Shown here in pieces: positions 1 to 46,398 of a stretch of 46,398 bases of DNA (position 1 is the stretch's first letter; each line of letters starts with the position of its first letter). A program made the position numbers and the translations under genes. The stretch comes from a virus, in IMG/VR virus record IMGVR_UViG_3300009285_000017, positions 1 to 46,398 of that record; one strand, given 5' to 3'. Below the pieces are notes generated by a model that was given only the letters and a program-made list of their open reading frames with translations, was not told the DNA's origin and did not search any database.

Positions 1-77
1 TATGCGTCCCGATATGGACGATATGTCGAATGCCCTTGCCAAACATTTTGGCATTACCAACCACCGCCCCTACCAAG
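1..77. repeat. Left copy of 77-bp terminal direct repeat
   Basis: These bases are identical to 46322-46398. The overlap length equals a common assembler k-mer, so it most simply marks closure of a circular contig. The open reading frame also continues exactly from the right end into this copy, which supports circularity. A genuine 77-bp direct terminal repeat is possible but less likely. Confidence 0.93.
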
Positions 78-325
78 ACAACCAAGAACTTGACGACTTT
101 ATGAGAGATTTGCCCGAAGAAGAAAAGATACATCAAGTTGAGTATGGCAAATATGCTTTAAGGAAGATTGCGGAAAAATATCTTCCCCTCGAAATTGCTT
201 GGAGAAAGGGAAAGGTTGGAGGCCCTGTCTATCCCGTGAACGCTAAAAAAGGATGGTTGGATATTGACGGGGAGTTCGGGAAAACCGAATACATAAAATG
301 GCAGAAGGAGATACTCCAAAAGTAA
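1..325 (+). CDS. Asparagine synthetase-like PP-loop protein, 3' part
   Basis: This is the C-terminal end of the gene that starts at 45771 and is cut by the linearisation point. Joined across the junction it gives 291 codons (551 + 325 nt) with no frame change. This part holds the helical end of the asparagine synthase domain, including a basic AWRKGKVGGP stretch near the C-terminus like the substrate and AMP-binding tail of AsnB-type enzymes. It ends in TAA and overlaps the next glycosyltransferase by 28 nt, which implies translational coupling. Position 2 is an internal Met codon, not the start. See 45771 for the catalytic motifs. Confidence 0.8.
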   Translation, partial: MRPDMDDMSNALAKHFGITNHRPYQDNQELDDFMRDLPEEEKIHQVEYGKYALRKIAEKYLPLEIAWRKGKVGGPVYPVNAKKGWLDIDGEFGKTEYIKWQKEILQK

Positions 326-981
326 GTATCATCGTCGTACATTGGGCACAGAACGAGTTTCGCTCCCAGAAGATGCGGGAGTGTATCGTTTCGTTGATTC
401 AAACAACAGGGCTTTCTTTCCCAGAAATTATCGTAGTAGACAATGGGGGGAACTATGAAGACAGTCAGTTTCTTCTCGACCAGACAAACGATGGCAATAT
501 CTCCTGCTATATCCGTAATCGCAAGAATATGAGTTTTGGTTTTGCCCGAAATCAGGGATTGAAGATGGCAACAGGCGAATACATTTGTATCTCCGACAAC
601 GATATTTTGTATAAAGAGGGCTGGCTGGAGAAATGTATAGGAATACTAGAAGCTCACCCCGATAGAAAAATAGGCGTGACTCCTTTGCGGACAGACCGTC
701 AACACCGCCAAGCCAAATGCTGGAAAGGAGAGTTGGAATTTAACGGAGAGAAACTTTTGTTAAACACCAAGGCGGGTTCTAACTGCTGGGTGATGAGAAA
801 AGAGGACTTTCTTGAAGTAGGAAGATTCCTCCAACACAGAGTGGCGGGAAGCAAATGGGCGGATAAGTTTGTCGATAAAGGCTATCTGATGGTGACGATG
901 GAGAAGAATCCATTGGCCGAAGACCTCGCTTTCAAGAAAGGTTATAATTTTAGAGCACCAATAGAAAATACGGAATTGTGA
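298..981 (+). CDS. Family 2-like glycosyltransferase
   Basis: The 227-residue product has the GT-A fold signature of family 2 enzymes: an N-terminal VSIIVVHW strand, then EIIVVDNGG (nucleotide-binding Asp), then NQGLKMATGEYICISDNDIL near residue 95-105, where SDND takes the place of the DxD metal-binding motif. A small C-terminal region follows, shorter than in many family members. Its start overlaps the upstream asparagine synthetase-like gene by 28 nt and its end overlaps the next gene by 4 nt, so it is inside a tightly packed operon. Donor and acceptor sugars cannot be told. The context suggests modification of a virion protein or of the host surface. Confidence 0.8.
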   Translation: MAEGDTPKVSIIVVHWAQNEFRSQKMRECIVSLIQTTGLSFPEIIVVDNGGNYEDSQFLLDQTNDGNISCYIRNRKNMSFGFARNQGLKMATGEYICISDNDILYKEGWLEKCIGILEAHPDRKIGVTPLRTDRQHRQAKCWKGELEFNGEKLLLNTKAGSNCWVMRKEDFLEVGRFLQHRVAGSKWADKFVDKGYLMVTMEKNPLAEDLAFKKGYNFRAPIENTEL

Positions 982-1505
982 AGCTTTCCGTTAATATCCT
1001 GACTTACAAAGGAGAGTTTCTTGATAAGGCAATAGCGTCTGTCAGACCTTATGCTGATGAGGTAATAGTGAAAGATACTGCTGCTATTCAACACTTAGGC
1101 AAGGCGTGGACAAACTCCCCACTGGACATAGAGTTGACTCGTCTCTTGAACGAGATGAAGGATGAGAGCAAGGGAGGGTGGATATTAAAAGTGGATGACG
1201 ATGAGATTTTTACTACAGAGTTGATGGAAGAGATTATGAAAATTGTGCGGAGTGATGATGATACTCCAATCTACGCCATCCCTTTTCGGCATGTCGGCAC
1301 CAGTTCTAAGAAGAGATACATCAAGCGTCTTTTCAGGAACATAGAAGATGTTAGCTGGAATGGTAACTATGGATGGGAAACTCTCGCTTATCAGGGAAAG
1401 CGGATTTCTTCCAACAAATGTCCTAAATTAAATAACTTCTTTTACCATCTGGGCGGTTTGCGGAAAGAATACACCAGAAAGCATGACTACAGCACTTTAC
1501 AATAA
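978..1505 (+). CDS. Small family 2-like glycosyltransferase
   Basis: A 175-residue protein starting at GTG, which overlaps the stop of the previous gene (GTGA). It begins LSVNILTYKGEFLDKAIASV and has WILKVDDDEIF near residue 75, a DDD motif in the place of DxD, typical of short GT-A enzymes of the WaaE/KdtX-like type. The usual UDP-binding Asp after strand 2 sits in ADEVIVKDT. It is shorter than a standard GT2 domain, so it may be a minimal domain or a partner of a neighbouring transferase. The acceptor is unknown. Confidence 0.65.
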   Translation: MKLSVNILTYKGEFLDKAIASVRPYADEVIVKDTAAIQHLGKAWTNSPLDIELTRLLNEMKDESKGGWILKVDDDEIFTTELMEEIMKIVRSDDDTPIYAIPFRHVGTSSKKRYIKRLFRNIEDVSWNGNYGWETLAYQGKRISSNKCPKLNNFFYHLGGLRKEYTRKHDYSTLQ

Positions 1506-2172
1506 GAAGATAGTTATTGTTGTCCAGTCAAAGTTCCCTAAAGTTTTAGAAGAGTTTAAGACGCAGTTTGAAGCGACCACCGAGGATTTTAAGAACTTAA
1601 AACTTCTTGGAATAATCGGAGAAGAATACGGGGCGAAAGAAATAAATAGGATTCTTCGCCCCATCACCGCCCAAAAAGAAGTGGAAATCTTCGGTGTTTA
1701 TAATGATGACCTTTGGTTCGGGGAGAGGTGGCTGGAAGATATATTGGAGAAACTTGAAATTTACCCTTGTGTTTCACCTGGCTATGTAGAAACTGATAAA
1801 TGGGAAGTTTTTAAGAAAGCAGTGGATGGCACTAAAGATGAGATAGGAGTAGTGCCATTTCTTTATGGCCCAGCCCACACTTTTAGAACATCTCTCTTTC
1901 GACAGATAGGTTTATTTGATGAGAGATTCGACTGGTCGGTGGATGACCTAGATTGGGCATGGCGAATAAAGTTAAACGGAATGGAATCGGCGACTTCCAA
2001 GAAAATAACAATAGGACATAGGGTCGGGACAACTCTTACCAAGACGAAAGGATGGAACCGAATCTCGGATATTAACAAGGAACTTTTCTACGATAAGCAT
2101 GGCTGGCCAGCTTACCGACATCTGCGAAATCACTATAAAAACTATCATTCTTATTTTGTAGAATGGAAGTAA
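1483..2172 (+). CDS. Family 2-like glycosyltransferase
   Basis: The 229-residue product carries GVYNDDLWF (DD motif) near residue 85 and the block IGLFDERFDWSVDDLDWAWR near residue 140-160. This matches the conserved FDE-F-x-ED-x-D-x-xxR signature of the acceptor side of GT2 enzymes, with a DD pair where many have ED. It overlaps the previous gene by 23 nt and the next by 10 nt. Third transferase in a row; the three differ in sequence and are not recent duplicates. Confidence 0.78.
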   Translation: MTTALYNKKIVIVVQSKFPKVLEEFKTQFEATTEDFKNLKLLGIIGEEYGAKEINRILRPITAQKEVEIFGVYNDDLWFGERWLEDILEKLEIYPCVSPGYVETDKWEVFKKAVDGTKDEIGVVPFLYGPAHTFRTSLFRQIGLFDERFDWSVDDLDWAWRIKLNGMESATSKKITIGHRVGTTLTKTKGWNRISDINKELFYDKHGWPAYRHLRNHYKNYHSYFVEWK

Positions 2173-2678
2173 AGCGCTTAGAAATCGGTTCGGGAAAAAT
2201 GCCCCGAAAAGGTTTCACTCATATAGATATTGAGGAGAGTGCGAAACCTGACATTCTCGGAGATTTCCGTACAATGGAGTTCTCTGATTTAGAGGAGATT
2301 ATTGCCCTTCATGTTTTGGAGCATTTTAGTAGGAAAGAGGGACTTGAAGTATTGAAGCAGTGGCATGCTTGGTTGAAAGTCGGCGGGAAACTGATTGTGG
2401 AGACTCCTGACATGGAGAGGATTTGCGGATTTTTTACCACCCGACCAGAGAGATTGTGGGCGGATAGGGAACATCTTAATTTCGCCCTCTACGGCTCGCA
2501 AGGGGAAGATTGGGCATATCATAAAGACGGGTGGTGGCGGGAAAAGTTTAAGAAAGTTTTGCCAGAGATAGGATTTAATATAGTTAAAATTTGGCAGAAA
2601 CACAGCTACATCAGGTATGGAGAGAGCCGAACAAGGTATCGCCTACCTGACATTAGGATTATCGCGGAAAAGATATGA
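2163..2678 (+). CDS. SAM-dependent methyltransferase (class I, small)
   Basis: The 171-residue product starts with LEIGSGKMPRKGFTHIDI, a motif I-like glycine-rich loop followed by an acidic strand-2 end (HIDI). It continues with IIALHVLEHF (motif for post-strand 4) and WLKVGGKLIVETPD, as in Methyltransf_11-type enzymes found in glycan gene clusters. The first beta strand starts at the very N-terminus, so the domain has no N-terminal cap. It lies between glycosyltransferase and FkbM-type genes with 4-10 nt overlaps, so the substrate is probably a sugar or lipid-linked sugar rather than DNA. Confidence 0.75.
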   Translation: MEVKRLEIGSGKMPRKGFTHIDIEESAKPDILGDFRTMEFSDLEEIIALHVLEHFSRKEGLEVLKQWHAWLKVGGKLIVETPDMERICGFFTTRPERLWADREHLNFALYGSQGEDWAYHKDGWWREKFKKVLPEIGFNIVKIWQKHSYIRYGESRTRYRLPDIRIIAEKI

Positions 2679-3310
2679 CAAGTATCAAAGAGTTAGTTGA
2701 TTTACATAGCCCGATTACCGAAAAAGATTTGGTAATTGACGTAGGAGGGTATCAAGGAGATTACGCCCAAGCTGTTTTTGAGAGGTTCGGGTGTATAGTG
2801 GTTGTTTTTGAGCCAAATGCCGAGATTTACGAAGCTTTGGTTAAAAGATTCAACGATAATCCCAAGATACAATGTAATCCTATGGCTATCGGGGGCGAGT
2901 CGGGATTGGAAAAACTTTATCTAAGGGAAGATGGGAGTTCGTTTTTTCAAGAGTGGGCTGGCACTAACGAATGGCGAGGGGTAGCGGTGGGCAGGTTGAG
3001 CGATTTTGTTAAGTTTGCGAAGATAATCCCTAAAATTGTAAAACTTAATTGCGAAGGGGCAGAGTATGATATTATCAAGGAATTAGACGAAAGCGGTTGT
3101 CTGCCCCAAATTAACGAACTTTTAGTCCAACTCCATAAAATACCAAACTGGTTTACCTTGCGTCTAAAAGCGGAAGAAAGATTATCTAAAACTCACGTAA
3201 AAACATACGATTACAAATGGCAACTTTGGAAGCGAAAGGAAATAAACCAAGTTATTGGGACAATATCTGGTCAAAATACCGCTGGCGAGTTGATTCCCCA
3301 GATGTCCTAA
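2675..3310 (+). CDS. FkbM-family methyltransferase
   Basis: A 211-residue protein with LVIDVGGYQGDYA (motif I), VVVFEPNAEIYEAL (acidic residue binding the SAM ribose, EPN as in FkbM proteins) and KLNCEGAEYDIIKEL, which matches the KID-x-EG-x-E signature of the FkbM family. FkbM enzymes methylate hydroxyls of sugars and polyketides. It overlaps the previous gene by 4 nt (ATGA). The last roughly 30 codons overlap the next gene by 94 nt, which is unusual here. The conserved domain seems to end before that overlap, so the tail may be readthrough. Confidence 0.8.
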   Translation: MTSIKELVDLHSPITEKDLVIDVGGYQGDYAQAVFERFGCIVVVFEPNAEIYEALVKRFNDNPKIQCNPMAIGGESGLEKLYLREDGSSFFQEWAGTNEWRGVAVGRLSDFVKFAKIIPKIVKLNCEGAEYDIIKELDESGCLPQINELLVQLHKIPNWFTLRLKAEERLSKTHVKTYDYKWQLWKRKEINQVIGTISGQNTAGELIPQMS

Positions 3311-3882
3311 AAGAAATGGCTGATAGAGCAAACACAAAAGAGTATTGGGATGAGTTGTGGAAATCCCCCAAAAGAAGAGTAGAGAAGTATTCTATGCAGA
3401 GAGCTTGGTGGCATATTTCCCAAACTGGAGCGAAGTCGGTTTTAGACGCTGGTTGCGGAAATGGACGGCTTCTTTTTGGGGTCAAACAGAATCACCCCGA
3501 AATTGAACTTTTCGGCATAGACATCTCGCAAGTGGCAATAGACAGAATGAAGAGAGAGTATGGCGTGGACGGAGCCGTCTTGGATGTTTACCAAGTTGAG
3601 GAATTGGGCAGGAAATTTGATTGTATAGTCGCCAACCATATGCTTGAACATCTTTATCGAGACGAGGACTTCTTAATCTCTTGTAAAAATTGTTTGAATG
3701 AGAATGGCACAGTTTTCTGTGCCGTCCCAAATAATATGAGTGGCCCCAAAGAAACAGATGAGCACGTCAGAAAATATAACAGAGAGATGATTGAGGAACT
3801 TTTCAATAAAGTTTTCGGGAATTGCGAGATTACCATTATCGGAAACCACCTAATTGCTGTCGGGAAAAATGCGGTTAGCTAG
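3217..3882 (+). CDS. SAM-dependent methyltransferase (class I)
   Basis: The 221-residue frame contains SVLDAGCGNGRLLFGV (motif I), ELFGIDIS (motif II), FDCIVANHMLEHL and NGTVFCAVPN, a clear Methyltransf_11/25-like domain of the UbiE type. The start is uncertain. ATG at 3217 gives a 94-nt overlap with the FkbM gene and two N-terminal copies of a YWDxxW motif (YWDNIWSKY and YWDELWKSP). ATG at 3316 removes the overlap and keeps one copy. The same YWDxxW motif opens the methyltransferase at 42001. Likely substrate: a sugar made by the surrounding transferases. Confidence 0.75.
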   Translation: MATLEAKGNKPSYWDNIWSKYRWRVDSPDVLKEMADRANTKEYWDELWKSPKRRVEKYSMQRAWWHISQTGAKSVLDAGCGNGRLLFGVKQNHPEIELFGIDISQVAIDRMKREYGVDGAVLDVYQVEELGRKFDCIVANHMLEHLYRDEDFLISCKNCLNENGTVFCAVPNNMSGPKETDEHVRKYNREMIEELFNKVFGNCEITIIGNHLIAVGKNAVS

Positions 3883-4516
3883 TCATACGATATGCAGGAA
3901 TAGTCTACCGTTCCTTATCCCCGTTTTGGAGCAGGTTGCTCCCTATGTAGATAAGTATTTTATAGCCCTCTCGGAGTTCTCTGATGACGGGACTCTCGAA
4001 GCCATTCAGAGCTGGAACTCACCCAAGCCAGTAGAGTTTATGATAGAAAGTTCAAAGCCCGCCGACCTCACTAAGATAAGGCAGTTTCAAGTAGATAGGA
4101 CAACGCAGGACTGGATTCTTTTTTTAGATGACGATGATTGGTGGATACCCGAGAAACTAAAACACGCCCTTAAAATAGCCGAAAGCGGGGTGGATGCGGT
4201 GGCAGTCAGTCCCTATCAGATTTTAGACAAAAACCACTACGACTCTTGGTGGGGGGAGCATAAATGGTTCACTAAACTATTCAAAAACGAGGACATCAAC
4301 TATCGGGGGAACTGGCCAAAAGACATGATTTACAAAGGCGATAGGATGCTTTACCACAAAACCTATGAGATGGGAAAAGTTCCTTATGGCTACTATCATC
4401 TCTCCGAAGTCAAACCTTATTCTTTTAGGAATGCCGACCCCAAATGGTGGAACTCGGTCAAATCTAAAAAGAAGTTTACAGCCCCGATTCCTGAAGAACT
4501 GACCCGTTTGCTATAA
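3869..4516 (+). CDS. Family 2-like glycosyltransferase, end of sugar operon
   Basis: A 215-residue product with a GT-A domain: LASHTICRNSLPFL at the N-terminus, FSDDGTLEAIQSW and then DWILFLDDDDWWIPEKL near residue 85-100, a strong DxD-type motif followed by the W typical of these enzymes. The start at ATG 3869 is chosen because GGGA lies 5 nt upstream; a TTG at 3854 in the same frame is the alternative. It overlaps the preceding methyltransferase by 14 nt and is the last gene of the run. The next gene has its own promoter only 8 nt downstream. Confidence 0.78.
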   Translation: MRLASHTICRNSLPFLIPVLEQVAPYVDKYFIALSEFSDDGTLEAIQSWNSPKPVEFMIESSKPADLTKIRQFQVDRTTQDWILFLDDDDWWIPEKLKHALKIAESGVDAVAVSPYQILDKNHYDSWWGEHKWFTKLFKNEDINYRGNWPKDMIYKGDRMLYHKTYEMGKVPYGYYHLSEVKPYSFRNADPKWWNSVKSKKKFTAPIPEELTRLL

Positions 4517-4524: not shown

Positions 4525-4758
4525 ATGCTCTGCGATTACAAGATTGGCTACATCTCGGATAGCGGGTTTCATAAGGAAGTGAAGGTCTTTTTTTACGAGA
4601 AAGAGACAGAAAACAGCGTTAGAAAGAAATTAGAAGAGCAGGTTTTTCTTTTCGATCCTTGGGGTTCCCACAAGGAAATAGTCGCATATCTAAATAAATA
4701 TCTTAAAGATCACTACGGTCAAGGCCGCCAGCCGATAAATGAACAACGAGAAGAATAG
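4525..4758 (+). CDS. Unknown protein, first gene of tail operon
   Basis: A 77-residue mixed alpha/beta protein of unknown function. It begins MLCDYKIGYISDSGF and has a charged C-terminus. Its ATG directly follows a TATAAT box with a 7-nt gap, so the mRNA is probably leaderless. The 3' end overlaps the following structural gene by 20 nt, which suggests co-translation with it. No family recognised. Confidence 0.6.
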   Translation: MLCDYKIGYISDSGFHKEVKVFFYEKETENSVRKKLEEQVFLFDPWGSHKEIVAYLNKYLKDHYGQGRQPINEQREE

Positions 4759-6223
4759 AGGACATTTCCTCGCCTTTGATAAGGAGTGGTTTCATAAACA
4801 TCAGAAGAAACTACTTTGGTCATTAAATACACCCATTATTAGACTTTGGGCTAGATGGATTTTACGGATAAACGGCTCTCTTAGTTCGGTGGGAAGCGAG
4901 AGGATTACACGGATACAACCCCATGCCATTTCTTGGGGAGATAAGACAGAATTTCGTACCCACTGGAAGTTCTCTAAACGGCTTTACTACGCCTTTAAGT
5001 ATGCTTGGTGGCTGGCTCACTTTTGGGACTGGGTTTTCGCCGAAAGATTTGCCCCAAAGATGTCTTTCGGCTTTGACACATTAACCGTTTATCCCGACCC
5101 TGCCCCAGAGACGACAACAGTGGATGGATTTGTGGTAAGGGTTCAGGATAACCAAACATGGGCATCTCTTCACGATAATACAGCAGGGACTACTGCCACT
5201 GATGATAGTCCTGATGACCTTGTTTTTGAGTTTAAGGCTGGCACCGACAGTAACACTTGGAGAATAATAGCCAGGGCTTTTTATCTTTTCGATACTTCAT
5301 CTATTCCAGACACCAATTCTATTTCTGCCGTCGTTTTATCTGTGTTTGGCACAGCGGCGGGGGATATCGGTTCTAACTCCCCCAATATGAATGTCTATGC
5401 TTCCACGCCTGCTACTGACACGGCACTAGTTGTTGGGGATTATGACCAAGTAGGCACGACTGCCTACGCTACCGCTATTGCCTATGCGTCTATCAGTACC
5501 TCCGCTTATAATAATTTGACTTTCAATGCGACAGGCAGGGCTGCTATCAGTTTAACGGGAGTTTCAAGATTTTCTGTTAGAAATGGGAATTATGACGCTG
5601 ACAATGTTGAGCCGACTTACGCATCTGGCGCTGATAGTTTTTTCACTGGTTATTTTGCTGACCAAGGAGGGACTACCACCGACCCTAAGTTAGTGGTGAC
5701 TCACGCTGCTCCTACAACCTCCACCTCAACTTCCACAACAACCTCATCAACCAGCACCTCTACTAGCACAAGTTCTTCCACCTCAACTTCCACATCCACA
5801 TCCAGCTCAACTTCTACAAGTTCTTCGACTACCACAACAGCGACTTCGTCTTCAACCTCCTCAAGCACATCTTCATCGACATCAACTAGTTCTAGCACTA
5901 CTACATCCAGTAGTACTTCGTCTTCCACTAGCACTAGTACCACAACTTCTTCCTCCACAACAACATCATCTTCAACTTCTACATCCACCACAACCACCAG
6001 TTCGACTACGACAAGTTCGACATCCTCTTCTTCCTCTACGAGTTCTACTTCTACGACCAGTTCAACGACTTCCAGCACTTCTACTAGCACTAGCACCACT
6101 TCCACCACTACTGCTTTCCCCTACATAATCCCGATATTGAATATCAAGCCCATTACCCCGATATTGGATATTAAGACCAAAACTCCCTATTTAGATATAA
6201 AGAGAACCTATCGTGCAGGGTGA
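4739..6223 (+). CDS. Ser/Thr-tract structural protein with beta-sandwich domain
   Basis: The 494-residue product has four parts. Residues 1-110 are rich in Trp, His and Arg (FHKHQKKLLWSL, HFWDWVFAERF), possibly a virion-attachment region. Residues about 115-320 look like a beta sandwich of the DNRLRE/CBM type (ARAFYLFDTSSIPDTNSIS, then a paired-strand pattern). Residues about 325-457 are almost only Ser and Thr. The C-terminus has AFPYIIPIL followed by repeated P-x-L-x-I-K units. Ser and Thr are encoded by many synonymous codons, so the tract is kept by selection on the protein rather than recent slippage. It is probably a fibre or decoration protein, with the tract a likely O-glycosylation target (inference). 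Confidence 0.7.
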   Translation: MNNEKNRGHFLAFDKEWFHKHQKKLLWSLNTPIIRLWARWILRINGSLSSVGSERITRIQPHAISWGDKTEFRTHWKFSKRLYYAFKYAWWLAHFWDWVFAERFAPKMSFGFDTLTVYPDPAPETTTVDGFVVRVQDNQTWASLHDNTAGTTATDDSPDDLVFEFKAGTDSNTWRIIARAFYLFDTSSIPDTNSISAVVLSVFGTAAGDIGSNSPNMNVYASTPATDTALVVGDYDQVGTTAYATAIAYASISTSAYNNLTFNATGRAAISLTGVSRFSVRNGNYDADNVEPTYASGADSFFTGYFADQGGTTTDPKLVVTHAAPTTSTSTSTTTSSTSTSTSTSSSTSTSTSTSSSTSTSSSTTTTATSSSTSSSTSSSTSTSSSTTTSSSTSSSTSTSTTTSSSTTTSSSTSTSTTTTSSTTTSSTSSSSSTSSTSTTSSTTSSTSTSTSTTSTTTAFPYIIPILNIKPITPILDIKTKTPYLDIKRTYRAG

Positions 6224-14462: not shown

Positions 14463-14605
14463 GGACAATAAACCTCATAAGTTCTTCCTGCCCCAGGCAC
14501 ATACTCACAATCATCCGTTCTAGGTTCCGGATGGGATAGAACCCAAATTACTGAGAACAATATAAAGGCGATGAATGCTATAGTGGCTTTCTTCTCAAAA
14601 CTCAT
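14459..14605 (-). CDS. Small membrane protein
   Basis: A 48-residue protein with one hydrophobic helix (ATIAFIAFILFSVIWVLS, residues 7-24) and a Cys-containing outer tail (DDCEYVPGAGRTYEVYCP) that could form a disulfide. The start at 14605 overlaps the stop of the upstream glycosyltransferase gene (ATGA). A longer frame starting upstream would lie inside that gene and is less likely. It is the last gene of the minus-strand sugar operon. Function unknown; it might anchor or accompany the glycosyltransferases at the membrane. Confidence 0.6.
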   Translation of the reverse strand: MSFEKKATIAFIAFILFSVIWVLSHPEPRTDDCEYVPGAGRTYEVYCP

Positions 14606-15735
14606 CTCCTCAGATATACAAACTCCGACATTTTTGAATTGATGAACTCTTCCAGACCTTTCTGATACTTGCTTTCTTCGTAGGCTTTCTTTGCGAGCGG
14701 GCTTTGCTCTAAAAGTTCCAGCCAACTATCGTGGTAAATTGTGATTGCCCCATAAGAGTTCCCATGCCTTTCCATATTCTTCTTATCCCAGGGCTGTTCC
14801 GCCAGGACTTCGTTGAAGGTATATTTTCTCCGCTTCTCTATAAATGCCCTGTCTTCTGCCATCTCCCGTTCTCCTTCTTCCATTATGAACTTTAATCTTT
14901 CGGGATTTTTTGTCCGCAGATAGTTTATGTAAGCCCTCTCCCGCCAGTCGTCCATTCCTAAAGCGTAGGAGATATTCAGGACATTATGGACATAATCCAT
15001 CTGGTCGTAGCCATAATTGCGGGCGGCGGCCAGATGATAACCGATGGCGTGGGGTTCGGTGGCTACCAATGACCCGAACATCCACCATTTCATATTCAGG
15101 TAGAACTCTCCTCCTCCGTAGGTTCGGTGGATTTTCGGGTAGCCCCCGAAATTTAAGAATTGCTTCTTTTTAACGCACAACCCCCAATGTCCTTGGGCAG
15201 GGACATAAAACCAACTGTCTGCCACCTTATAATTGTTCCAATTCCCTCTTATCTCTTCGCCCAGTTTAAGAGAGTAGCCATACCCCATAGAACGCTCAAA
15301 GGGCGGGTATGCTCCGAGGTCTTGTTTGGCTCCGTGAACTATCCCCCCGCTTTCGTCCACTGCTTTCATCAAATTAGTAAAGAACCCTGGCTTGAAGGCG
15401 ACATGAGCATCCACGAAAAAGATATACTCCCCCCTCGCCACCTCCGCCCCTTTATTCCTGGCGGCGTGGTTTCCCGCTATCGGGTAGTGGACGACCCGCA
15501 GAACCCTATGGCCGAACATCCCCCTCCCCATCATGTAGGTTGTCGTCCCTCCCGTGCCTGGTTTCTCAAAAATGGTGTCGTCGGAGGCGTTGTCTACGAT
15601 GATAATTTCGTAGTCCCGCCAATCATATCCCTCAGCTTCAAGGGCGTGGATGATGGAGTAACAGGTATAAGCCACATCAGGGAACTCATTTCTACTCGGC
15701 ACAATCACCGAAAGTTTTATTTGGGGCCAGAGCAC
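14602..15735 (-). CDS. Glycosyltransferase resembling polypeptide GalNAc-transferases
   Basis: A 377-residue GT-A enzyme starting at GTG. The order of motifs is LSVIVPSRNE (residues 8-17), EIIIVDNASDD (43-53), NHAARNKGAEVARGEYIFFV (89-108) and then DAH at 109-111. DxH rather than DxD is the metal site of GT27 mucin-type polypeptide GalNAc-transferases. Further on, FLNFGGYPKIHRTYGGGEFY (193-212) followed by NMKWWMFG matches the F-x-x-x-G-x-Y and WGGEN-xELSF-xxW-x-CGG block of that family, and HAIGYHL parallels its H-x-GH element. There is no ricin-type lectin domain. Bacterial GT2 relatives with DxH exist, so the peptide acceptor is an inference from motif plus the Ser/Thr-rich partners. Confidence 0.75.
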   Translation of the reverse strand: MLWPQIKLSVIVPSRNEFPDVAYTCYSIIHALEAEGYDWRDYEIIIVDNASDDTIFEKPGTGGTTTYMMGRGMFGHRVLRVVHYPIAGNHAARNKGAEVARGEYIFFVDAHVAFKPGFFTNLMKAVDESGGIVHGAKQDLGAYPPFERSMGYGYSLKLGEEIRGNWNNYKVADSWFYVPAQGHWGLCVKKKQFLNFGGYPKIHRTYGGGEFYLNMKWWMFGSLVATEPHAIGYHLAAARNYGYDQMDYVHNVLNISYALGMDDWRERAYINYLRTKNPERLKFIMEEGEREMAEDRAFIEKRRKYTFNEVLAEQPWDKKNMERHGNSYGAITIYHDSWLELLEQSPLAKKAYEESKYQKGLEEFINSKMSEFVYLRR

Positions 15736-16637
15736 CTTGAAAGAATTGGTGTGTGAGTTGTCGACTTCTCCGTTGGCTCTCCTGCCGCACTGAAAAACTC
15801 TATCTTGTTAAAGTATTCCGAGAGAACATCCCAAAATCCCTCGCTCGTCCATTCTCTAACGTGAGCTTTATTAGCGGGACGCTCGTTGCTTATCGTCTTA
15901 TTATTTCTATTGGGCGTGCTAATATACCAAGTAGAGGAGGGCTTGCCGAGTTTTTTAACCAAGTTAGTCAGGAATGTTTGGTAGTCAGCGATGTGTTCTA
16001 TTGTTTCTATCGCTACGATAAAGTCGAACTTTAAGAACTCACGGGTATCTTTGATAAAGTCAAGGCAATCAAATTTCAGTTCGGAAGAATAATACAACCT
16101 ATTTAGGTTTCGGGTGAACGCTTCGGTGGCGAATTTGACCGACTTCTCGTTTTTGTCTATCCCCCAAGCGAACTGGGCTTCCTGGGAAAGGATGTTTGCT
16201 CCGACCCCGCACCCGCTTCCGACATCCACTACGAAAGGCCCCCAGATATATTTCGGCCATTGAATCCTTCCCTGCGTCCATTTCAGCATTTCATCCCGCA
16301 CAAACTCATACATCATCCTTGTCGGAGGGTAGAGGAGGTGTCCGCTGTGCTGAAATTGGTTGATATTGGTCAGCCACTGCTCTTTGTCCTCTATTTCGGG
16401 GTTTTCTTGGTAGTTAGGGTCGGTTATCCCAGCAGAAGTGGTTGTTAGTGGCTCAATCTGGCTCTCTGCGGGGACTTCTTCTTCGGGTGGGGGGTATTCC
16501 TTGCTTGCCTCCTGTTCTTCCAATTCACGCTGTTTTAGACGCAAGTTTTCTGCCTCAACCACGCCATAGCAATCAGAGCAGAGTAGGTTCTGAAAATCGT
16601 CAGGAATTTCTACCGAACATCGCTCACAAGATTTCAT
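15717..16637 (-). CDS. SAM-dependent methyltransferase with N-terminal zinc ribbon
   Basis: The 306-residue product opens with a CxxC...CxxC zinc ribbon (CERC at residues 4-7 and CSDC near 20). A Glu/Pro-rich linker to about residue 75 follows. The class I methyltransferase domain has FVVDVGSGCGVGANIL (motif I), AWGIDKNEKSV (motif II) and FIVAIETIEHI. The ribbon could bind a partner or nucleic acid. It overlaps the glycosyltransferase gene by 19 nt and the upstream 59-codon gene by 14 nt, so all belong to one operon. Substrate unknown, probably a sugar. Confidence 0.72.
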   Translation of the reverse strand: MKSCERCSVEIPDDFQNLLCSDCYGVVEAENLRLKQRELEEQEASKEYPPPEEEVPAESQIEPLTTTSAGITDPNYQENPEIEDKEQWLTNINQFQHSGHLLYPPTRMMYEFVRDEMLKWTQGRIQWPKYIWGPFVVDVGSGCGVGANILSQEAQFAWGIDKNEKSVKFATEAFTRNLNRLYYSSELKFDCLDFIKDTREFLKFDFIVAIETIEHIADYQTFLTNLVKKLGKPSSTWYISTPNRNNKTISNERPANKAHVREWTSEGFWDVLSEYFNKIEFFSAAGEPTEKSTTHTPILSRCSGPK

Positions 16638-16987: not shown

Positions 16988-17130
16988 TAGTTTGTTTTCT
17001 TTTTCCTCGGCAGTTTCCCTATTTTCGACATAAATTCCCTGCCATACTTTTTGTAGGTTATGCCTCCACCCTTCTTCCCTAACTCGCTGAAGTGCTTTCT
17101 TATGACTTCTTTCTTTTCTTCTTCGGTCAT
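16987..17130 (-). CDS. Small basic protein
   Basis: A 47-residue protein, MTEEEKKEVIRKHFSELG near the start and a very basic tail (KIGKLPRKKKTN). GGGIT-x-KKYGREFM suggests a short helix-turn-helix-like or DNA-binding segment, but this is weak. Its start overlaps the stop of the GT4 gene by 4 nt and its stop overlaps the next start by one base, which supports coding. Confidence 0.6.
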   Translation of the reverse strand: MTEEEKKEVIRKHFSELGKKGGGITYKKYGREFMSKIGKLPRKKKTN

Positions 17131-18389
17131 TTCTCGTACAAAAGAGGTTCAATCTGGTTTCTGAATAGGTAGTCGTAATTGAACTCCCTTTTAATTTTAC
17201 TGGCGACCTTTAAGCTCTTGTTTACGCTGAACTCCGAAATGATTATTTTGGCGACATCCCTCATAAATGTTTGGCGGTCATCCCACTCTACATTCTCGAC
17301 CTGTGAGCCGAACTTAAAATAGAGGGCGTTCTCCTGCCCGAACTCTCTTAAAGAGGGGACACTGTCGTTCAATACAAGAAGACATCCTGACAGCATTGCC
17401 TCTAAAAGTATAAGAGAGCAGTTCTCGGAGGTAGTGGGGAAGATAAAAAGGTTAGAGAGGCGGAAAAAGTCCGACACAGCTTCACGGGGAATACCCAACT
17501 CATAGGTGGGCGGGTCTTCGAGGGATGTGAAGATGAGTTCTGAAGCGTTGATGCCCTGTTTTGAGGCGTAAGAGAAAATCTCCGCTATCTCTTCTTTCTC
17601 TCTATTATTGTTGGCGTGGGCGTTAGGGACGACTATACGAATACTCTTCCCCATCTTCTTGAGCTGTCCCATTACTTCGAGAACGACCCCAAATTGCTTA
17701 TTTCCCATAGCACGGGGGGTGGAAAGAGGATAGACCTGAATAAAATCCGCTGAAAGTAAGTCGTATTTTTCTATGACAGATTTTACTAAAGGGTGGAGAG
17801 GCCAAAAGAGGCGGGGGTCAAGGGCATTGTGGACAATGCGGACATCTTTGGGGAAAAGTCCGTATACTTCAGCGGCTTTCAGAATGTCATGGTTATTCAG
17901 GTAGACGAGTTTGGAATTAGGCGGTAATTCATATCTTAAATTATGAGGATATTTAATATCAGCGGGTTTGGGCGAAGGGACAGAATGAATCCAGTGGAAC
18001 CACTTGATAGAAGTTTCCCTCGCAATTCGGTGAATGGCCATAGCGTGGGGGAGGAACCATCCCTGTAAAAGGAGGTCGTGTTCAAAAACCACATCTATAT
18101 CTTTTAGAGATTCTCGGAGAGCTTCATAAACCTTCTCGGCGTTTTGATGACAAATTTCGTCTACTTCTTGGTGGTCGGAGTAATCTTTGTAAAGAAAGAC
18201 AGGGATGTCTTTCCTTATCTCCACTCCTTCGGGGACTTTTTCGTCGTCTTTGAAATTAGTACAGGTATAAAGAGCGGGGGCGTAGTCGTTTTTAACCAAC
18301 GCGACTAGCTGGGATTGGATGACCGAACAAAGAGAGTAGGAGTTGTCCCACTTATCTAGTGGTGTGAGGATTGCTATACGAAGTTTCAC
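17127..18389 (-). CDS. GT4-like glycosyltransferase (GT-B fold)
   Basis: The 420-residue product has an N-terminal Rossmann half (RIAILTPLDKWDNSYS), then VRIVHNALDPRLFWPL, which is the linker region before the C-terminal half. The C-terminal half contains IQVYPLSTPRAMGNKQ, KSIRIVVPNAHAN and FIFPTTSENCSLILLEAMLS, which is the E-x7-E nucleotide-sugar binding block of GT4 enzymes. This is the only GT-B type enzyme in the genome. It starts 4 nt into the end of the YopX-like gene. Probable role: sugar transfer for the same glycan made by the GT-A enzymes. Confidence 0.8.
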   Translation of the reverse strand: MKLRIAILTPLDKWDNSYSLCSVIQSQLVALVKNDYAPALYTCTNFKDDEKVPEGVEIRKDIPVFLYKDYSDHQEVDEICHQNAEKVYEALRESLKDIDVVFEHDLLLQGWFLPHAMAIHRIARETSIKWFHWIHSVPSPKPADIKYPHNLRYELPPNSKLVYLNNHDILKAAEVYGLFPKDVRIVHNALDPRLFWPLHPLVKSVIEKYDLLSADFIQVYPLSTPRAMGNKQFGVVLEVMGQLKKMGKSIRIVVPNAHANNNREKEEIAEIFSYASKQGINASELIFTSLEDPPTYELGIPREAVSDFFRLSNLFIFPTTSENCSLILLEAMLSGCLLVLNDSVPSLREFGQENALYFKFGSQVENVEWDDRQTFMRDVAKIIISEFSVNKSLKVASKIKREFNYDYLFRNQIEPLLYEK

Positions 18390-18992: not shown

Positions 18993-19190
18993 ATGGTTGA
19001 TAATGGAGATTTCTGGAGAAAGGAAGCATGGGACGCCCTCAACGAAAAAGTAGACAGGATTGAGGGAAAGGTTGACGGCATCAAAGAAAAACAGGACAAG
19101 ATGATTGGACAAGCGTCTATTATCTCCCTTATAGTTGGAGCGACTGCTTCATTGGTTGCCGTCTGGATTAAAGGACTTTTAGGGAAATGA
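18993..19190 (+). CDS. Holin-like membrane protein
   Basis: A 65-residue protein with an N-terminal coiled coil (ALNEKVDRIEGKVDGIKEKQ, residues 15-34) and one C-terminal membrane helix (ASIISLIVGATASLVAVWIKG, shown split around residues 42-61), ending in basic residues. This layout matches the haemolysin XhlA-type holin-associated proteins. It is the first lysis gene and overlaps the peptidase gene by 4 nt. Confidence 0.7.
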   Translation: MVDNGDFWRKEAWDALNEKVDRIEGKVDGIKEKQDKMIGQASIISLIVGATASLVAVWIKGLLGK

Positions 19191-38513: not shown

Positions 38514-39530
38514 ATGCCAGCTTTAACACAGCGTGTCACTGATATTACTCAGGACACATTCTTCCCTGCGATGACAGACAACATCTACTCAGGGAACGTG
38601 TTGACAGCGATTCTTTCGAGAAGCCCTCGAACATGGCGTGGCGGAACTCCAATCAGAGTTCCCGTCTACCTAATGAGTGGCCAGTTGCTGAATGTTGGTT
38701 CTTACAGCGGTTTTGATTCATTCTCAACCACTGCCGAGACCCCGACTCAGCAAGCCTCATTCAACCCTTCACAGTATGCCGCTTCAATCCCACTTTCTGG
38801 AATTGAATTGGCCGCTAATAGGGGTGAGGCCGCAGTAGTGGATTTGGTTGCTTCCACATTAAGCATCTACGCAGAAGCTCTTCGCCAAGATATGGGAACG
38901 GACGTTTACGGAGATGGGACAGGAAACAATTCTAAAGCACTACTCGGATTGGTTGCCCAAACAGATGACACGACTTCGGTCACGACATTCGGGGGTATTT
39001 CTCGAACCACATACACCAACTGGAGAGGAACGAGAACAGCTCAGTCTGGTTCTTTGTCCCTAGCGAACTTGGCGGCAGATGTTGATGCGGCACAGGTTGG
39101 AACGGAAAAGCCGAATCTTTTAGTGACTACCCCAGCGGTATTCACAATTTACGAGGCACTTCTAACTCCGACTGTAACCCATAACCTATCCTTTAGCGGA
39201 TACGACATGCTGACCCCAGGGGGCGAGTTCCAAAAGAACGGCCCAGCGGCAGGACAAGGATTCAACTCACTCTATTTCAGAGGGATTCCTTTGGTAGCGG
39301 ATGAGAAGTGTACTAGTGGAAACATTTACACTTTGAACACCCGCCACCTTTACTGGTATGTAATGCCCCAGCCGGAAGAGTTCAAACGAGCCGAGAACAG
39401 AGGCTTTGGTTGGACTGGCTGGAAAGAGTCGCTAAACCAAGACGCAGTAGTCGGGCAACTTTTGCTCTACTGTCAGCTGATTGGCGATGCTCCGAGGCTT
39501 CACGCGCGAAGAACTGGGGTAACGTTATAG
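38514..39530 (+). CDS. Major capsid protein
   Basis: A 338-residue product with the pattern of HK97-fold capsid proteins: an N-terminal helix, the beta hairpin E-loop region (RGGTPIRVPVYLMSGQLLNV), a spine-helix region rich in Ala/Glu (IELAANRGEAAVVDLVAS), A-domain strands (KPNLLVTTPAVFTIYEALL) and a C-terminal VVGQLLLYCQLIGDAPRLHA. Gene position after the scaffold is as expected. Confidence 0.85.
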   Translation: MPALTQRVTDITQDTFFPAMTDNIYSGNVLTAILSRSPRTWRGGTPIRVPVYLMSGQLLNVGSYSGFDSFSTTAETPTQQASFNPSQYAASIPLSGIELAANRGEAAVVDLVASTLSIYAEALRQDMGTDVYGDGTGNNSKALLGLVAQTDDTTSVTTFGGISRTTYTNWRGTRTAQSGSLSLANLAADVDAAQVGTEKPNLLVTTPAVFTIYEALLTPTVTHNLSFSGYDMLTPGGEFQKNGPAAGQGFNSLYFRGIPLVADEKCTSGNIYTLNTRHLYWYVMPQPEEFKRAENRGFGWTGWKESLNQDAVVGQLLLYCQLIGDAPRLHARRTGVTL

Positions 39531-41345: not shown

Positions 41346-41666
41346 GTGCAATACGGACAACCAACAGCTACACGATTTCAGAAGACGACAGTTAATTGCG
41401 TTAATAATTCGTGGACAGACCTAGGCGGAAGCACTCCTCTAACCAACAGAGTGGGGACGGAGTTGTTTGTTAAATCGCAAGCGGCTATTAACAAGCTATA
41501 TATCGCTTACTCTTTGAGTTCAACTGCCCCATCTGATTTAGTTGAGGATTGTATTGCTCTTGAAACTGGTTCCTACCACTTTGTCTCCAATGGCCCAGGA
41601 TTATATCTTTGGGGCAGGACGGACGCTGGTAGGGGTAAGGTAATCGTTACGGAATTTGCGGCATGA
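41346..41666 (+). CDS. Small beta-rich virion protein
   Basis: A 106-residue product (VNCVNNSWTDLGGSTPLTNR, then ALETGSYHFVSNGPGLYLWG) starting at GTG. The beta pattern and position suggest a virion surface protein. Its stop overlaps the Ser/Thr-tract gene start by 4 nt, so the two are made together. Confidence 0.5.
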   Translation: MQYGQPTATRFQKTTVNCVNNSWTDLGGSTPLTNRVGTELFVKSQAAINKLYIAYSLSSTAPSDLVEDCIALETGSYHFVSNGPGLYLWGRTDAGRGKVIVTEFAA

Positions 41667-41998
41667 CATACTTTTTTCACGTTGATACAGCCCTAACTTG
41701 GACGACTACTTCGACCAGTTCGAGCACATCTACTACGACTTCCACTACCTCGACTAGTTCGTCCACATCAACTTCGTCTACTACAACTTCCAGCACCTCA
41801 ACAAGTTCAACTACTAGTTCTACTAGTACTAGTACGAGTTCAACCTCAACTAGTACGACAACGTCGACTAGCTCAAGCACGTCGACCAGTACAAGCACCA
41901 GTAGTTCTACTTCCACTAGCTCATCTACAACATCATCTACGACCTCTAGTACGTCTTCGACTAGCACTTCAACTAGCTCATCGACTACTATGCCTTAG
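41663..41998 (+). CDS. Ser/Thr-tract protein
   Basis: A 111-residue product made of a short N-terminal piece (TYFFHVDTALTWTTT) and about 98 residues of Ser and Thr, ending MP. Unlike the other two tract proteins it has no C-terminal P-x-L-x-I-K module, so the tract itself is the conserved part. It is coupled to the upstream virion protein, and followed by a methyltransferase and an epimerase. Likely substrate of O-glycosylation (inference). Confidence 0.6.
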   Translation: MTYFFHVDTALTWTTTSTSSSTSTTTSTTSTSSSTSTSSTTTSSTSTSSTTSSTSTSTSSTSTSTTTSTSSSTSTSTSTSSSTSTSSSTTSSTTSSTSSTSTSTSSSTTMP

Positions 41999-42000
41999 AG

Positions 42001-42468
42001 ATGGTGTATGATGAGACCTATTGGGATATTGTCTGGTCTCGGAAATACGAGAAGTACAACCGTCACCACGCTTCCGTGTGGCAGGCGGTTGTGCCTTTTT
42101 TGAAAGGCAGGGTTTTAGATTTGGGTTGTGGCCCGTGTGTTATTTATAAAGGGCAAGATGTCGACCTTACAGGGGTAGACCAGTCAGGCGAAGCCCTAAA
42201 GCAAGCTAAACTAAATTACCCTAATGGGACTTATGTTAAAGCCGATGTCTTATCCACAGGGCTTCCCGACAATCAGTATGATACAATAATAATGCTTGGG
42301 CTTCTGGATTACTTTGAGGACTGGGGGCCGATATTAAACGAAGCAAGGCGACTAAAGAAACCTGATGGTAAAATAGTCGCTACTTTATTAAACGGCTATG
42401 AGGGTCACGACTGGACAAAGAATCCACACATCACAAGCAACTGGTACCTTTACACCGAAGGAGGATAA
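42001..42468 (+). CDS. SAM-dependent methyltransferase
   Basis: A 155-residue class I methyltransferase with GRVLDLGCGPCVIYKG (motif I), DLTGVDQSGEALKQAK (motif II) and YDTIIMLGLLDYF. It begins YWDIVWSRKYEKY, the same YWDxxW opening as the enzyme at 3217. It starts 3 nt after the Ser/Thr-tract gene and ends one base before the epimerase. Confidence 0.75.
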   Translation: MVYDETYWDIVWSRKYEKYNRHHASVWQAVVPFLKGRVLDLGCGPCVIYKGQDVDLTGVDQSGEALKQAKLNYPNGTYVKADVLSTGLPDNQYDTIIMLGLLDYFEDWGPILNEARRLKKPDGKIVATLLNGYEGHDWTKNPHITSNWYLYTEGG

Positions 42469-42469
42469 A

Positions 42470-43327
42470 ATGCGAGTTTTAGTAACGGGCCATAAAGGTT
42501 TCATCGGAACCCATGTCTTTAGCACCCTCCTGGAAGAGGGGTATGACGTGGTTGGGTGGGATTTGAAGGACGGCAATGATGTAACCCAGATGCTGCCCTC
42601 TGACCTCAACGACGGCAGGTCTAGGCAAGTGGATGTCATCTTCCACTTGGCGGCGATGCCGAGAGTTCCTCTCTCGATAGAGAGGCCAGAGTACACCAAC
42701 TGGCACAATGTCGAGGGGACACTTAGGGTTCTCTGGGCAGCCCACAAGGCAGGGGTGAAGAGAGTCATCTACTCGTCCTCTTCCTCTATTTATGGGCAGA
42801 GCCACAACCTTCCCATAAACGAGGAGACGAAGCCGAACCCGATGTCTCCCTACGCTGTCCAGAAGCTGACGGGGGAACATTACTGCAAGGTTTTCGCTAA
42901 TGTTTACGAACTGGAGACAGTGTCCCTCCGCTACTTCAACGTCTACGGTGAGGGGATGAAGGCAGACGACCCCTACTCCCCGTGTATCGCCATCTTCCTC
43001 GACCAGAAGAGGAAGGACGAACCACTTACCATCCTTGGAGGAAAGCAGAAAAGGGACTTCACTTATGTAGGTGATGTAGTTAAGGCGAACCTTCTGGCGA
43101 TGACTTCCGATAAGGTCGGAAAAGGCGAAGCAATCAACATCGGTGGAGGAAAAAACTACTCCATCGATGAGATAGCTTCCTTTATCAGCGACAAGACGAT
43201 TCACCTTCCCCAACGCAAAGGTGAGCCGATGAATACGCTGGCGAACATTGAGAAAGCGAAGTATCTCCTCAGATGGGAGCCAACGGTCAACCTCAAGAGC
43301 TGGCTACTCGACCAAATGGGGGCGTGA
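42470..43327 (+). CDS. NAD-dependent sugar epimerase/dehydratase
   Basis: A 285-residue extended short-chain dehydrogenase with LVTGHKGFIGTHV (GxxGxxG cofactor motif, residues 4-16), VIYSSSSSIYG and SPYAVQKLTGEHY (YxxxK catalytic pair, near residues 125-129). RYFNVYGEGM follows, which is typical of UDP-sugar 4-epimerases and related dTDP/GDP-sugar enzymes. ATG 42470 is chosen because GGAGG lies 5 nt upstream. It likely provides a nucleotide sugar for the glycosyltransferases. The reaction cannot be specified. Confidence 0.8.
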   Translation: MRVLVTGHKGFIGTHVFSTLLEEGYDVVGWDLKDGNDVTQMLPSDLNDGRSRQVDVIFHLAAMPRVPLSIERPEYTNWHNVEGTLRVLWAAHKAGVKRVIYSSSSSIYGQSHNLPINEETKPNPMSPYAVQKLTGEHYCKVFANVYELETVSLRYFNVYGEGMKADDPYSPCIAIFLDQKRKDEPLTILGGKQKRDFTYVGDVVKANLLAMTSDKVGKGEAINIGGGKNYSIDEIASFISDKTIHLPQRKGEPMNTLANIEKAKYLLRWEPTVNLKSWLLDQMGA

Positions 43328-45418: not shown

Positions 45419-45769
45419 ATGCCGAATGAAAATTACAACGCAGCTACTAGGCAATATGATGAACGCTGGCTTCAGTTTGATGGAGCCACCACAACTACCA
45501 GTTCGACTACTACAAGCACTACCTCGACCTCTACCACTACTAGTACTAGCACAACAAGTTCAACCTCTAGTTCAACTTCGACTTCTTCCAGTACATCTAC
45601 TTCTACCTCTACTTCGTCTACTACATCAACATCCACTTCAACCACTTCCACCACTACTGCTTTCCCCTACATAATTCCTATCTTGGAGATAAAGTCGTTT
45701 AAACCGATTTTGGAGATAAAGTCGTTTAAACCGAAACTTTCGATAGTTAGAGAAGATAAAAATACATAA
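45419..45769 (+). CDS. Ser/Thr-tract protein with C-terminal repeat
   Basis: A 116-residue product with an N-terminal piece (ENYNAATRQYDERWLQFDGA), Ser/Thr only from about residue 24 to 79, then AFPYIIPIL and repeated LEIKSFKP units. The junction AFPYIIPIL is shared exactly with the protein at 4739 and the units are of the same kind. The gene ends one base before the asparagine synthetase-like gene. Confidence 0.65.
   Translation: MPNENYNAATRQYDERWLQFDGATTTTSSTTTSTTSTSTTTSTSTTSSTSSSTSTSSSTSTSTSTSSTTSTSTSTTSTTTAFPYIIPILEIKSFKPILEIKSFKPKLSIVREDKNT
45683..45736 (+). repeat. Two tandem 27-bp units
   Basis: The unit beginning TTGGAGATAAAGTCG occurs at 45683 and 45710 with the first 25 bases identical. 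It encodes two LEIKSFKPx units at the end of the Ser/Thr-tract protein. The identity suggests recent duplication by slippage or recombination. Confidence 0.85.
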
Positions 45770-45770
45770 A

Positions 45771-46398
45771 ATGAAAAATCTTGAAGAACTAATAACTAAG
45801 AACATCAAACCTTATTTGGGAATACCCCTCGCCCTTTCTGGCGGAGTTGATAGCAGTTTGTTGGCGGCACTCATAAAGCCAAAGTTCGCTATTTCGGTGG
45901 AGTTGCCAGAGGGGAAACATGATGAGATAAAGTATTCAAAATTGGTCGCAGAACATTTAGGGCTAAGACACATCATCGTCAAGTTGGACGACAGCAATCT
46001 TGACGAAGATATGGAGATTGCGGTTAAGGCAATCGGGAGAGTAATCCCTCATTTCAATATCTTTCCGCTTTACCAGATGTATAAAAAATTAAATGAAATG
46101 GGTGAGACGGAATTAGTATTAGGGGACGGCCCTGACGAAACAATGTCGGGCTACGCCAGAGATTTAATCATCTCCTATCTTTATAAAGTCTATGACTTTC
46201 CCGCTTTTTTAAACTACAAAACACTCATAGATAAAATCCTCCCGCCAATTTCAGAAACGATTTCAAGAAGTATAGGAATAGAGACCGACCTTACCTCCAT
46301 AATGGAAGCTGACATCGTTCTTATGCGTCCCGATATGGACGATATGTCGAATGCCCTTGCCAAACATTTTGGCATTACCAACCACCGCCCCTACCAAG
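45771..46398 (+). CDS. Asparagine synthetase-like PP-loop protein, 5' part
   Basis: Together with 1-325 it encodes a 291-residue protein. Residues 22-29 are LSGGVDSS, the pyrophosphatase loop that binds ATP, and LGDGPDETMSGYAR near residue 130 matches the G-x-x-DE-x-x-GGY motif of the asparagine synthetase B synthetase domain. The N-terminal glutaminase domain is absent: the start follows directly after the previous stop and only about 16 residues precede the loop. It may adenylate a carboxylate and use ammonia, or be a variant ligase for sugar carboxylates. It heads the glycosyltransferase run. Confidence 0.8.
   Translation, partial: MKNLEELITKNIKPYLGIPLALSGGVDSSLLAALIKPKFAISVELPEGKHDEIKYSKLVAEHLGLRHIIVKLDDSNLDEDMEIAVKAIGRVIPHFNIFPLYQMYKKLNEMGETELVLGDGPDETMSGYARDLIISYLYKVYDFPAFLNYKTLIDKILPPISETISRSIGIETDLTSIMEADIVLMRPDMDDMSNALAKHFGITNHRPYQ
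46322..46398. repeat. Right copy of 77-bp terminal direct repeat
   Basis: Identical to bases 1-77. The reading frame of the asparagine synthetase-like gene passes through this copy and continues at base 78 of the left end, so the two copies represent one locus on a circular map. Confidence 0.93.

Follow-up and report, generated by a model that had tools for sequence, protein, structure and literature searches.

A recurrent pairing of a GT4 glycosyltransferase with Ser/Thr-tract genes in dozens of uncultured phages suggests that these phages equip themselves with mucin-like, sugar-coated bristles

Only a few cultured phages are known to put glycans of their own making on their virions. The window studied here, i.e., the whole of a 46,398-nucleotide stretch of DNA (positions 1 to 46,398 of IMG/VR virus record IMGVR_UViG_3300009285_000017), raises the question of whether an uncultured phage could coat itself with mucin-like proteins and, if so, which of its enzymes would place the first sugar. 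The first-pass annotation had seen three genes with tracts composed almost only of Ser and Thr, about 55 to 130 residues long, and a glycosyltransferase resembling the polypeptide GalNAc-transferases of family GT27, and had suggested that this enzyme glycosylates the phage's own tract proteins. The tracts, the enzymes and their linkage in other phages are considered in turn.

The window and its Ser/Thr tracts

Genes for capsid, portal and terminase proteins can be recognised in the window, which has a 77-bp direct terminal repeat (1-77 and 46322-46398) and an AsnB-like gene that spans the contig ends; because of these two features, the phage genome is probably complete, and circularly permuted or terminally redundant. 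Elsewhere, the window encodes a papain-like cysteine protease homologue (19187-20056; Peptidase_C1, E 5e-4), also found in the phage G037, and an HNH + AP2 protein of the homing-endonuclease type (24147-24662). The tract genes and the capsid gene are as follows.

4739..6223, + strand: tract protein A, 494 aa, with an N-terminal domain, a 133-residue S/T tract (5714-6112) and a C-terminal PILxIK tail
41663..41998, + strand: tract protein B, 111 aa, with a short leader (...VDTALTWTTTS) and then a 96-residue S/T tract (41702-41989)
45419..45769, + strand: tract protein C, 116 aa, with a short N-terminal domain, a 57-residue tract (45488-45658) and a PILEIK tail
38514..39530, + strand: major capsid protein (phrog_9953, E 8e-50)

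A six-frame scan of the window for at least 50% S/T over 40 residues gave these three tracts and nothing else comparable, and their measured lengths of 133, 96 and 57 residues agree with the range first reported. Tract A has one Ala among its 133 residues and otherwise consists only of Ser and Thr; tracts B and C have no other residue at all. The N-terminal part of tract protein A has homologues in G005, G009 and G037, and the PILxIK tail that ends tracts A and C is also found in G001, G009 and G037, where tails of the PxLxIxxxxPILxI type end the tract proteins. The tail behind tract C contains a perfect 27-bp tandem duplication (45683-45734), read as a PILEIKSFK repeat. Tract protein B (..HVDTALTWTTTS..) has a leader-plus-tract layout, which is that of the gene directly 5' of GT4 in other phages (e.g., MPNLGYVDTALTWTTTS in L298); because the major capsid protein is encoded at 38514..39530, tract gene B belongs to the structural module.

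All four ACN codons are used in the tracts (three in tract C), Ser is encoded by both TCN and AGY, and tandem-repeat scores are low, with weak tandem repeats detectable. The mixed codons and low scores mean that the tracts are not simple slippage products, and a slippage origin was rejected as contradicted by the codon evidence. Between two related phages, 31 tract codons have changed: 26 changes are synonymous, 5 exchange Ser and Thr, and none gives another residue, whereas about 53% of random single changes in tract codons are expected to do so. On this codon comparison, selection holds the tract residues as Ser or Thr, and it is the hydroxyl residues that it keeps, the choice between Ser and Thr being of little matter.

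The glycosyltransferases and the genes around them

The enzyme to which tract glycosylation had been ascribed is encoded on the opposite strand, together with a methyltransferase and a second glycosyltransferase.

14602..15735, - strand: DxH GT2-fold glycosyltransferase, 377 aa, GTG start (PF00535; D109, H111, H234 and E210 invariant)
15717..16637, - strand: class I SAM methyltransferase (Methyltransf_31) that has a Cys-rich segment at its N-terminus, between the GT4 and DxH genes
17127..18389, - strand: GT4 (GT-B) glycosyltransferase, 420 aa, of a family kept alongside tract genes in uncultured phages

The 377-aa enzyme has a GT2-type catalytic domain (PF00535, E 1.4e-16 in Pfam), with DAH at residues 109-111 and YGGGE at 206-210, followed by WW. 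The DxH and GGGE...W motifs first noticed are thus confirmed, and D109, A110, H111, H234, three Gly and E210 are invariant in eight aligned relatives. The DxH metal site and the later His ligand align to the GT27 region and are not unique to GT27. A profile search of the DxH family against the PDB matched GalNAc-transferases over most of the catalytic domain at E 2e-4 to 3e-3 (E 1.7e-4 for GalNAc-T3 of Toxoplasma). The AlphaFold model is of moderate confidence (pLDDT 71, pTM 0.75), and its top Foldseek matches, at TM 0.5-0.6 and E about 1e-13 to 1e-12, are Toxoplasma GalNAc-T3 and human T2, T4 and T12, with RmlT, TarS and TarP close behind and the lead of GT27 slight (E 3e-13 vs 1e-12 for RmlT). 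The WGGEN motif of GT27 is not kept: the sequence reads Y-G-G-G-E-F, with the Glu retained and the Trp and Asn replaced. Pfam finds GT2 models alone across the 377 aa, the ricin-type lectin domain being absent, and the sequence opens straight into a GT2 strand, i.e., there is no N-terminal membrane anchor. Structure prediction, proposed in the first-pass annotation as a check on this protein, hence puts GT27 first, with the teichoic-acid enzymes TarS, TarP and RmlT almost equal. The resemblance to GT27 is real, yet it does not fix the acceptor.

Three relatives of the DxH enzyme were found in a first IMG/VR scan and ten loci, at 53-60% identity, with an alignment; a GTDB scan with the enzyme gave none. 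In L146 (G042), the DxH gene is a 675-aa ORF with an in-frame, intein-like insert of ~300 aa, which reads CVDEKTEVLTMDGW...VSVTGQ|T and has a weak LAGLIDADG match. The 680-aa copy at L349:13474-15513 has a similar LAGLIDADG insert.

For the 420-aa enzyme, an alignment of 13 sequences shows E322 and E330 to be invariant, which is the EX7E motif of retaining GT4s, and the AF2 model (pLDDT 91) has a GT-B fold, with GlgM, MshA and BshA as best folds. PF00534 falls just below cutoff for this protein and above cutoff for L271. The likeness is to generic GT4s and not to GtfA, which is found neither among the PDB-chain profile matches up to E 0.1 nor among the top 50 folds; assignment to GtfA was accordingly rejected as unsupported. 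The family has zero matches in 50,697 deposited phage records, and a scan with the 13-sequence alignment found it in 117 IMG/VR viral contigs and four GTDB MAG contigs.

Further genes of the cassette are encoded on the + strand.

45771..46397, + strand: AsnB-like amidotransferase, 5' part (NCBIfam asn_synth_AEB, E 1e-14)
2..325, + strand: AsnB-like amidotransferase, 3' part, continuing across the 77-bp terminal repeat
298..981, + strand: GT2 glycosyltransferase of the accessory cassette (PF00535, E 1e-18), with homologues in relatives
978..1505, + strand: weak GT2-like glycosyltransferase (PF00535, E 0.008)
1483..2172, + strand: putative glycosyltransferase with a weak rhamnosyltransferase-like match and homologues in the G004, G037 and G042 cassettes
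2163..2678, + strand: conserved cassette gene, 171 aa, methyltransferase-like by sequence reading, with no NCBIfam match and with homologues in G005 and G042
2675..3310, + strand: FkbM-family methyltransferase, a candidate for O-methyl capping (TIGR01444 above cutoff)
3217..3882, + strand: class I methyltransferase
3854..4516, + strand: GT2 glycosyltransferase upstream of tract protein A (PF00535, E 1e-11)
42001..42468, + strand: class I methyltransferase, the next gene after tract gene B
42398..43327, + strand: NDP-sugar epimerase/dehydratase, extended SDR (PF01370, E 7e-59)

Both AsnB-like parts match a 337-aa homologue in L005. The best models for the epimerase are TviC and GalE, both below their cutoffs.

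GT4 and tract genes across phages

IMG/VR was scanned for GT4 blind to the presence of tracts, and 84 loci were examined (80 kept viral loci and 4 from GTDB). A strict S/T tract lies within 10 kb of GT4 in 57 of the 84 loci, and a tract gene on the same strand lies at most 3 kb upstream in 48 of the 81 that could be tested; none was found downstream (0/60) or on the opposite strand (0), and the shortest distances between tract and GT4 match are 18-51 bp. With the pattern applied to the controls, 49 of the 84 GT4 loci vs 1 of 26 control contigs were positive (p 2e-7, uncorrected for relatedness). Related phages inflate the raw linkage counts; after clustering at 70% identity, a tract adjoins GT4 in 28 of 45 clusters, and when the GT4 tree is rooted at its midpoint both halves include such loci. 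About 30% of the GT4 loci, one clade of eight included, have no strict tract within 10 kb, some of them being contig fragments or having tracts elsewhere. The window's own GT4 operon is on the opposite strand to its tract genes and does not adjoin them.

The tract proteins linked to GT4 are mostly minimal, with 7-60 residues before the tract, and these short N-terminal parts have either a leader like MPNLGYVDTALTWTTTS or a GDEYYNTTxxxWMRYDGxxWRG motif. Their genes lie among structural genes, e.g., in G004, G005 and L357 immediately behind that of the capsid, and from this gene position the tract proteins would be part of the virion. A second and common kind of tract, seen in L028, L050, L129 and similar loci, consists of PTTTTTSSSTSTS linkers between domains, often with Pro; tracts of this kind occur without this GT4 and without the DxH enzyme, and many phages lacking this GT4 have linkers rich in S/T, often with Pro in them. 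S/T tracts alone were rejected as a mark of the system, since a blind pattern scan returned many tract contigs of other types with neither enzyme.

Forty-two GT4 loci with an adjacent tract hold no DxH GT2. The DxH enzyme is also missing from the tract phages G034, G039, G045 and G103, all of which carry GT4 (E 1e-67 to 1e-88), and in a blind IMG/VR scan for tracts of the S/T type its close family occurred in 2 of the 38 tract contigs checked first, both of which share the window's tract layout and tail, and in 0 of the next 17. The DxH enzyme was therefore rejected as the main tract partner, tract phages being often without it, and the suggestion that it is the mucin-type initiator is not supported. 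A wider set of DxH/GGxE GT2s is present in 21 of the 84 GT4 loci. A second DxH subfamily, tried as a control, was discarded as not independent, because 5 of its 7 loci also hold GT4.

Phages with related capsids were gathered with a capsid alignment, the scan with a single capsid query being weak. Among those of at least 20 kb, all that have the DxH enzyme have tracts, and every DxH relative of at least 20 kb has pure S/T tracts; 13 tract-free phages with related capsids have neither the DxH enzyme nor GT4, and one 20-kb fragment has a tract and neither enzyme. Of 13 contigs chosen by random 15-mer, none has either enzyme and one has a tract-like match. GT4, the class I methyltransferase and the DxH GT2 form a conserved core, present in all relatives with enough sequence. 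Core and tracts are present in G004 and G005 too, though the window's major capsid protein did not match their capsid protein (that of G005 is a Phage_capsid_4 / Mu gpT-like protein). To judge from gene content, tracts and glycosyltransferase cassette co-occur in every sufficiently sequenced relative, across phages with different capsid modules. The genes round the core vary, and include UDP-sugar dehydrogenase, epimerases, AsnB-like amidotransferase, FkbM and other methyltransferases, DegT aminotransferase and further glycosyltransferases; a gene like that for UDP-sugar dehydrogenase often follows GT4 and is held by 38 of the 84 loci.

Several other arrangements were observed. Some UDP-sugar dehydrogenases are short, 256-271 aa (L001:7680-8486, L005:11122-11937, L267:2822-3589), and the two of these that were scanned match only the NAD-binding and central domains, the UDP-binding domain of the C-terminus being absent. 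GT2 and methyltransferase domains are joined in one protein at L293:12424-14106 and L006:15607-17358, as in Che8 gp108. A chromosomal GT4 relative of 560 aa in a Luminiphilus MAG (L288:9701-11808) adjoins a small protein whose S/T/G-rich tail is rich in TTTSGSSTTTSG, a possible cellular version of the module. In an Anaerolineales contig (L289:8486-11296), which apparently has phage-tail or injection-system-like genes, a T-rich protein is encoded directly upstream of a GT4 relative. Both of these distant relatives agree with the linkage seen in phages.

That the phage modifies its own S/T tracts, as originally suggested, is well supported by gene linkage, the co-occurrence of cassette and tracts and the selection for Ser/Thr pointing the same way; by the linkage, GT4 is a better partner than the DxH enzyme, and is most likely the core enzyme that would start glycans on the tracts.

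The proposed module, its rivals and known systems

We consider it likely that the phage O-glycosylates its own virion by means of a self-contained module, in which GT4 starts glycans on S/T tracts and other enzymes extend or cap them to give mucin-like bristles. In the host cytoplasm, GT4 (17127-18389) would put the first sugar on Ser/Thr hydroxyls of the acceptors, i.e., the three tract proteins, whose genes lie among those for structural proteins. The methyltransferase next to it, the DxH GT2, the further GT2s, the epimerase, the AsnB-like amidotransferase and the other methyltransferases would extend, modify and cap the glycans, and the glycosylated bristles would then be borne on the particle. 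The DxH enzyme is proposed as an extender, and is possibly a polypeptide transferase. Judging from the dehydrogenase and AsnB-like genes in relatives, the sugars may be uronic acids or uronamides. The coat might benefit the phage by shielding, hydration, tuned adsorption or mimicry.

The same genes could be read in other ways. If the DxH enzyme (14602-15735) were a mucin-type polypeptide transferase that starts the tract glycans, GT4 would merely extend them; this order of events would suit the GT27 fold and profile matches, the invariance of three putative metal ligands and of the Glu of the GGE block, and the occurrence of DxH/GGxE GT2s at 21 of the 84 GT4 loci and of GT4 at 5 of the 7 loci of the second subfamily. 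It is nonetheless unlikely, given the 42 tract-adjacent GT4 loci and the GT4-bearing tract phages that lack the enzyme, and the nearly equal fit of teichoic-acid GT2s to a model with pLDDT 71 and TM 0.5-0.6. Those wall-teichoic-acid folds would also fit a cassette for making or altering a glycan of the host surface (LPS, capsule, teichoic acid), e.g., to block superinfection, with the tracts as unmodified virion spacers. So would the kinds of gene present, since GT2, epimerase, UDP-sugar dehydrogenase and AsnB-like genes are usual in O-antigen loci, and the NCBIfam models that come closest, which are exopolysaccharide or Vi-antigen enzymes and all far below cutoff. Such a role is quite unlikely: it does not account for the position of tract genes, directly upstream of GT4 and in no case downstream, or for the lack of both enzymes in tract-free phages of the same capsid type, and the ORFs searched include no recognisable integrase.

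Tracts that were neutral low-complexity DNA, arising by slippage of WSN repeats and linked to the glycosyltransferases by chance, are conceivable in so far as short low-complexity coding repeats expand easily and weak tandem repeats are detectable; the mixed codons, the 31 changed codons without one non-S/T outcome where about 53% would be expected at random, and the strand- and side-specific linkage to GT4 make this very improbable. Phage glycosyltransferases that glycosylate DNA are known (cited in PMC12619734) and the window has a DNA methylase, but the linkage is to S/T-tract genes, and the window ORFs tested include none recognisable as a base-hydroxymethylating or thymidylate-synthase-like gene; hypermodification of phage DNA has next to no probability.

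If tract glycosylation by GT4 is the correct reading, then viruses of bacteria have also evolved coats of a mucin-like kind, with matched tracts and enzymes in more than 100 uncultured phage contigs. The chances are about even that this is a new phage system of wide occurrence: a dedicated GT4 family, which deposited phage genomes lack, would O-glycosylate mucin-like Ser/Thr bristles purpose-built for the virion, and swappable extender cassettes (dehydrogenase, methyltransferase + DxH GT2, amidotransferase) would give a phage-specific glycan coat. The enzyme-acceptor pair is small, a 420-aa GT4 and a 111-aa protein of almost only Ser and Thr, and such pairs may explain the targets of abundant glycosyltransferases in environmental phages.

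There is a fair chance that the GT4-tract module is distinct from the systems already described. In the literature searched, with most subscription papers outside its scope, phage S/T-tract glycosylation has no description. The first-pass annotation knew of no comparable phage system; phage-encoded virion O-glycosylation is in fact known from mycobacteriophages (Che8 and others; Freeman et al. 2023), with sugars reported on the C-termini of capsid and tail-tube proteins, as cited in PMC12619734 and PMC11652166. Phage glycosyltransferases modify the phage's own virion proteins there, as they would here, and the Che8 cluster likewise has GT2 and methyltransferase domains in one protein: of gp108-gp110, the first is a GT2-methyltransferase fusion, the second is GT2-like and the third GT25-like, and on the Che8 annotation these are presumably the enzymes of the reported system. 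The difference lies in the acceptors, C-terminal there and dedicated S/T tracts in the window phage, and in the enzymes, which are unrelated (no detectable match of gp108-110 to the GT4 and DxH profiles A5, A2 and A6; E > 0.06).

With the mucin-type O-glycosylation of animals and apicomplexans, the 377-aa enzyme shares the DxH, the later His, the GGE block and the best folds of GT27; it differs in having no WGGEN Trp, lectin domain or membrane anchor, in sequence matches that reach only E 1e-4 to 1e-3, and in being absent from most tract loci. TarS, TarP and RmlT are its next-best structural matches and have the same soluble bacterial GT2 catalytic fold, but their acceptors are ribitol-phosphate polymers, whereas the DxH enzyme belongs to an operon that a phage shares between it and S/T-tract genes, and its metal site is DAH, unlike the DxD that TarS-type enzymes use.

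GtfA and GtfB are GT4 glycosyltransferases. In streptococci, staphylococci and lactobacilli they glycosylate Ser/Thr-rich proteins, the serine-rich repeat adhesins (PMC6973325). The window system differs in occurring in phages, and neither a GtfB partner nor accessory Sec export was seen in it. GtfA/GtfB may be taken, without specific similarity, as a functional parallel to the GT4-tract module: in both, a soluble GT4 is encoded beside a Ser/Thr-rich acceptor gene (here on the same strand and at most 3 kb upstream of GT4, in 48 of 81 loci) and further glycosyltransferases extend, or would extend, the glycan.
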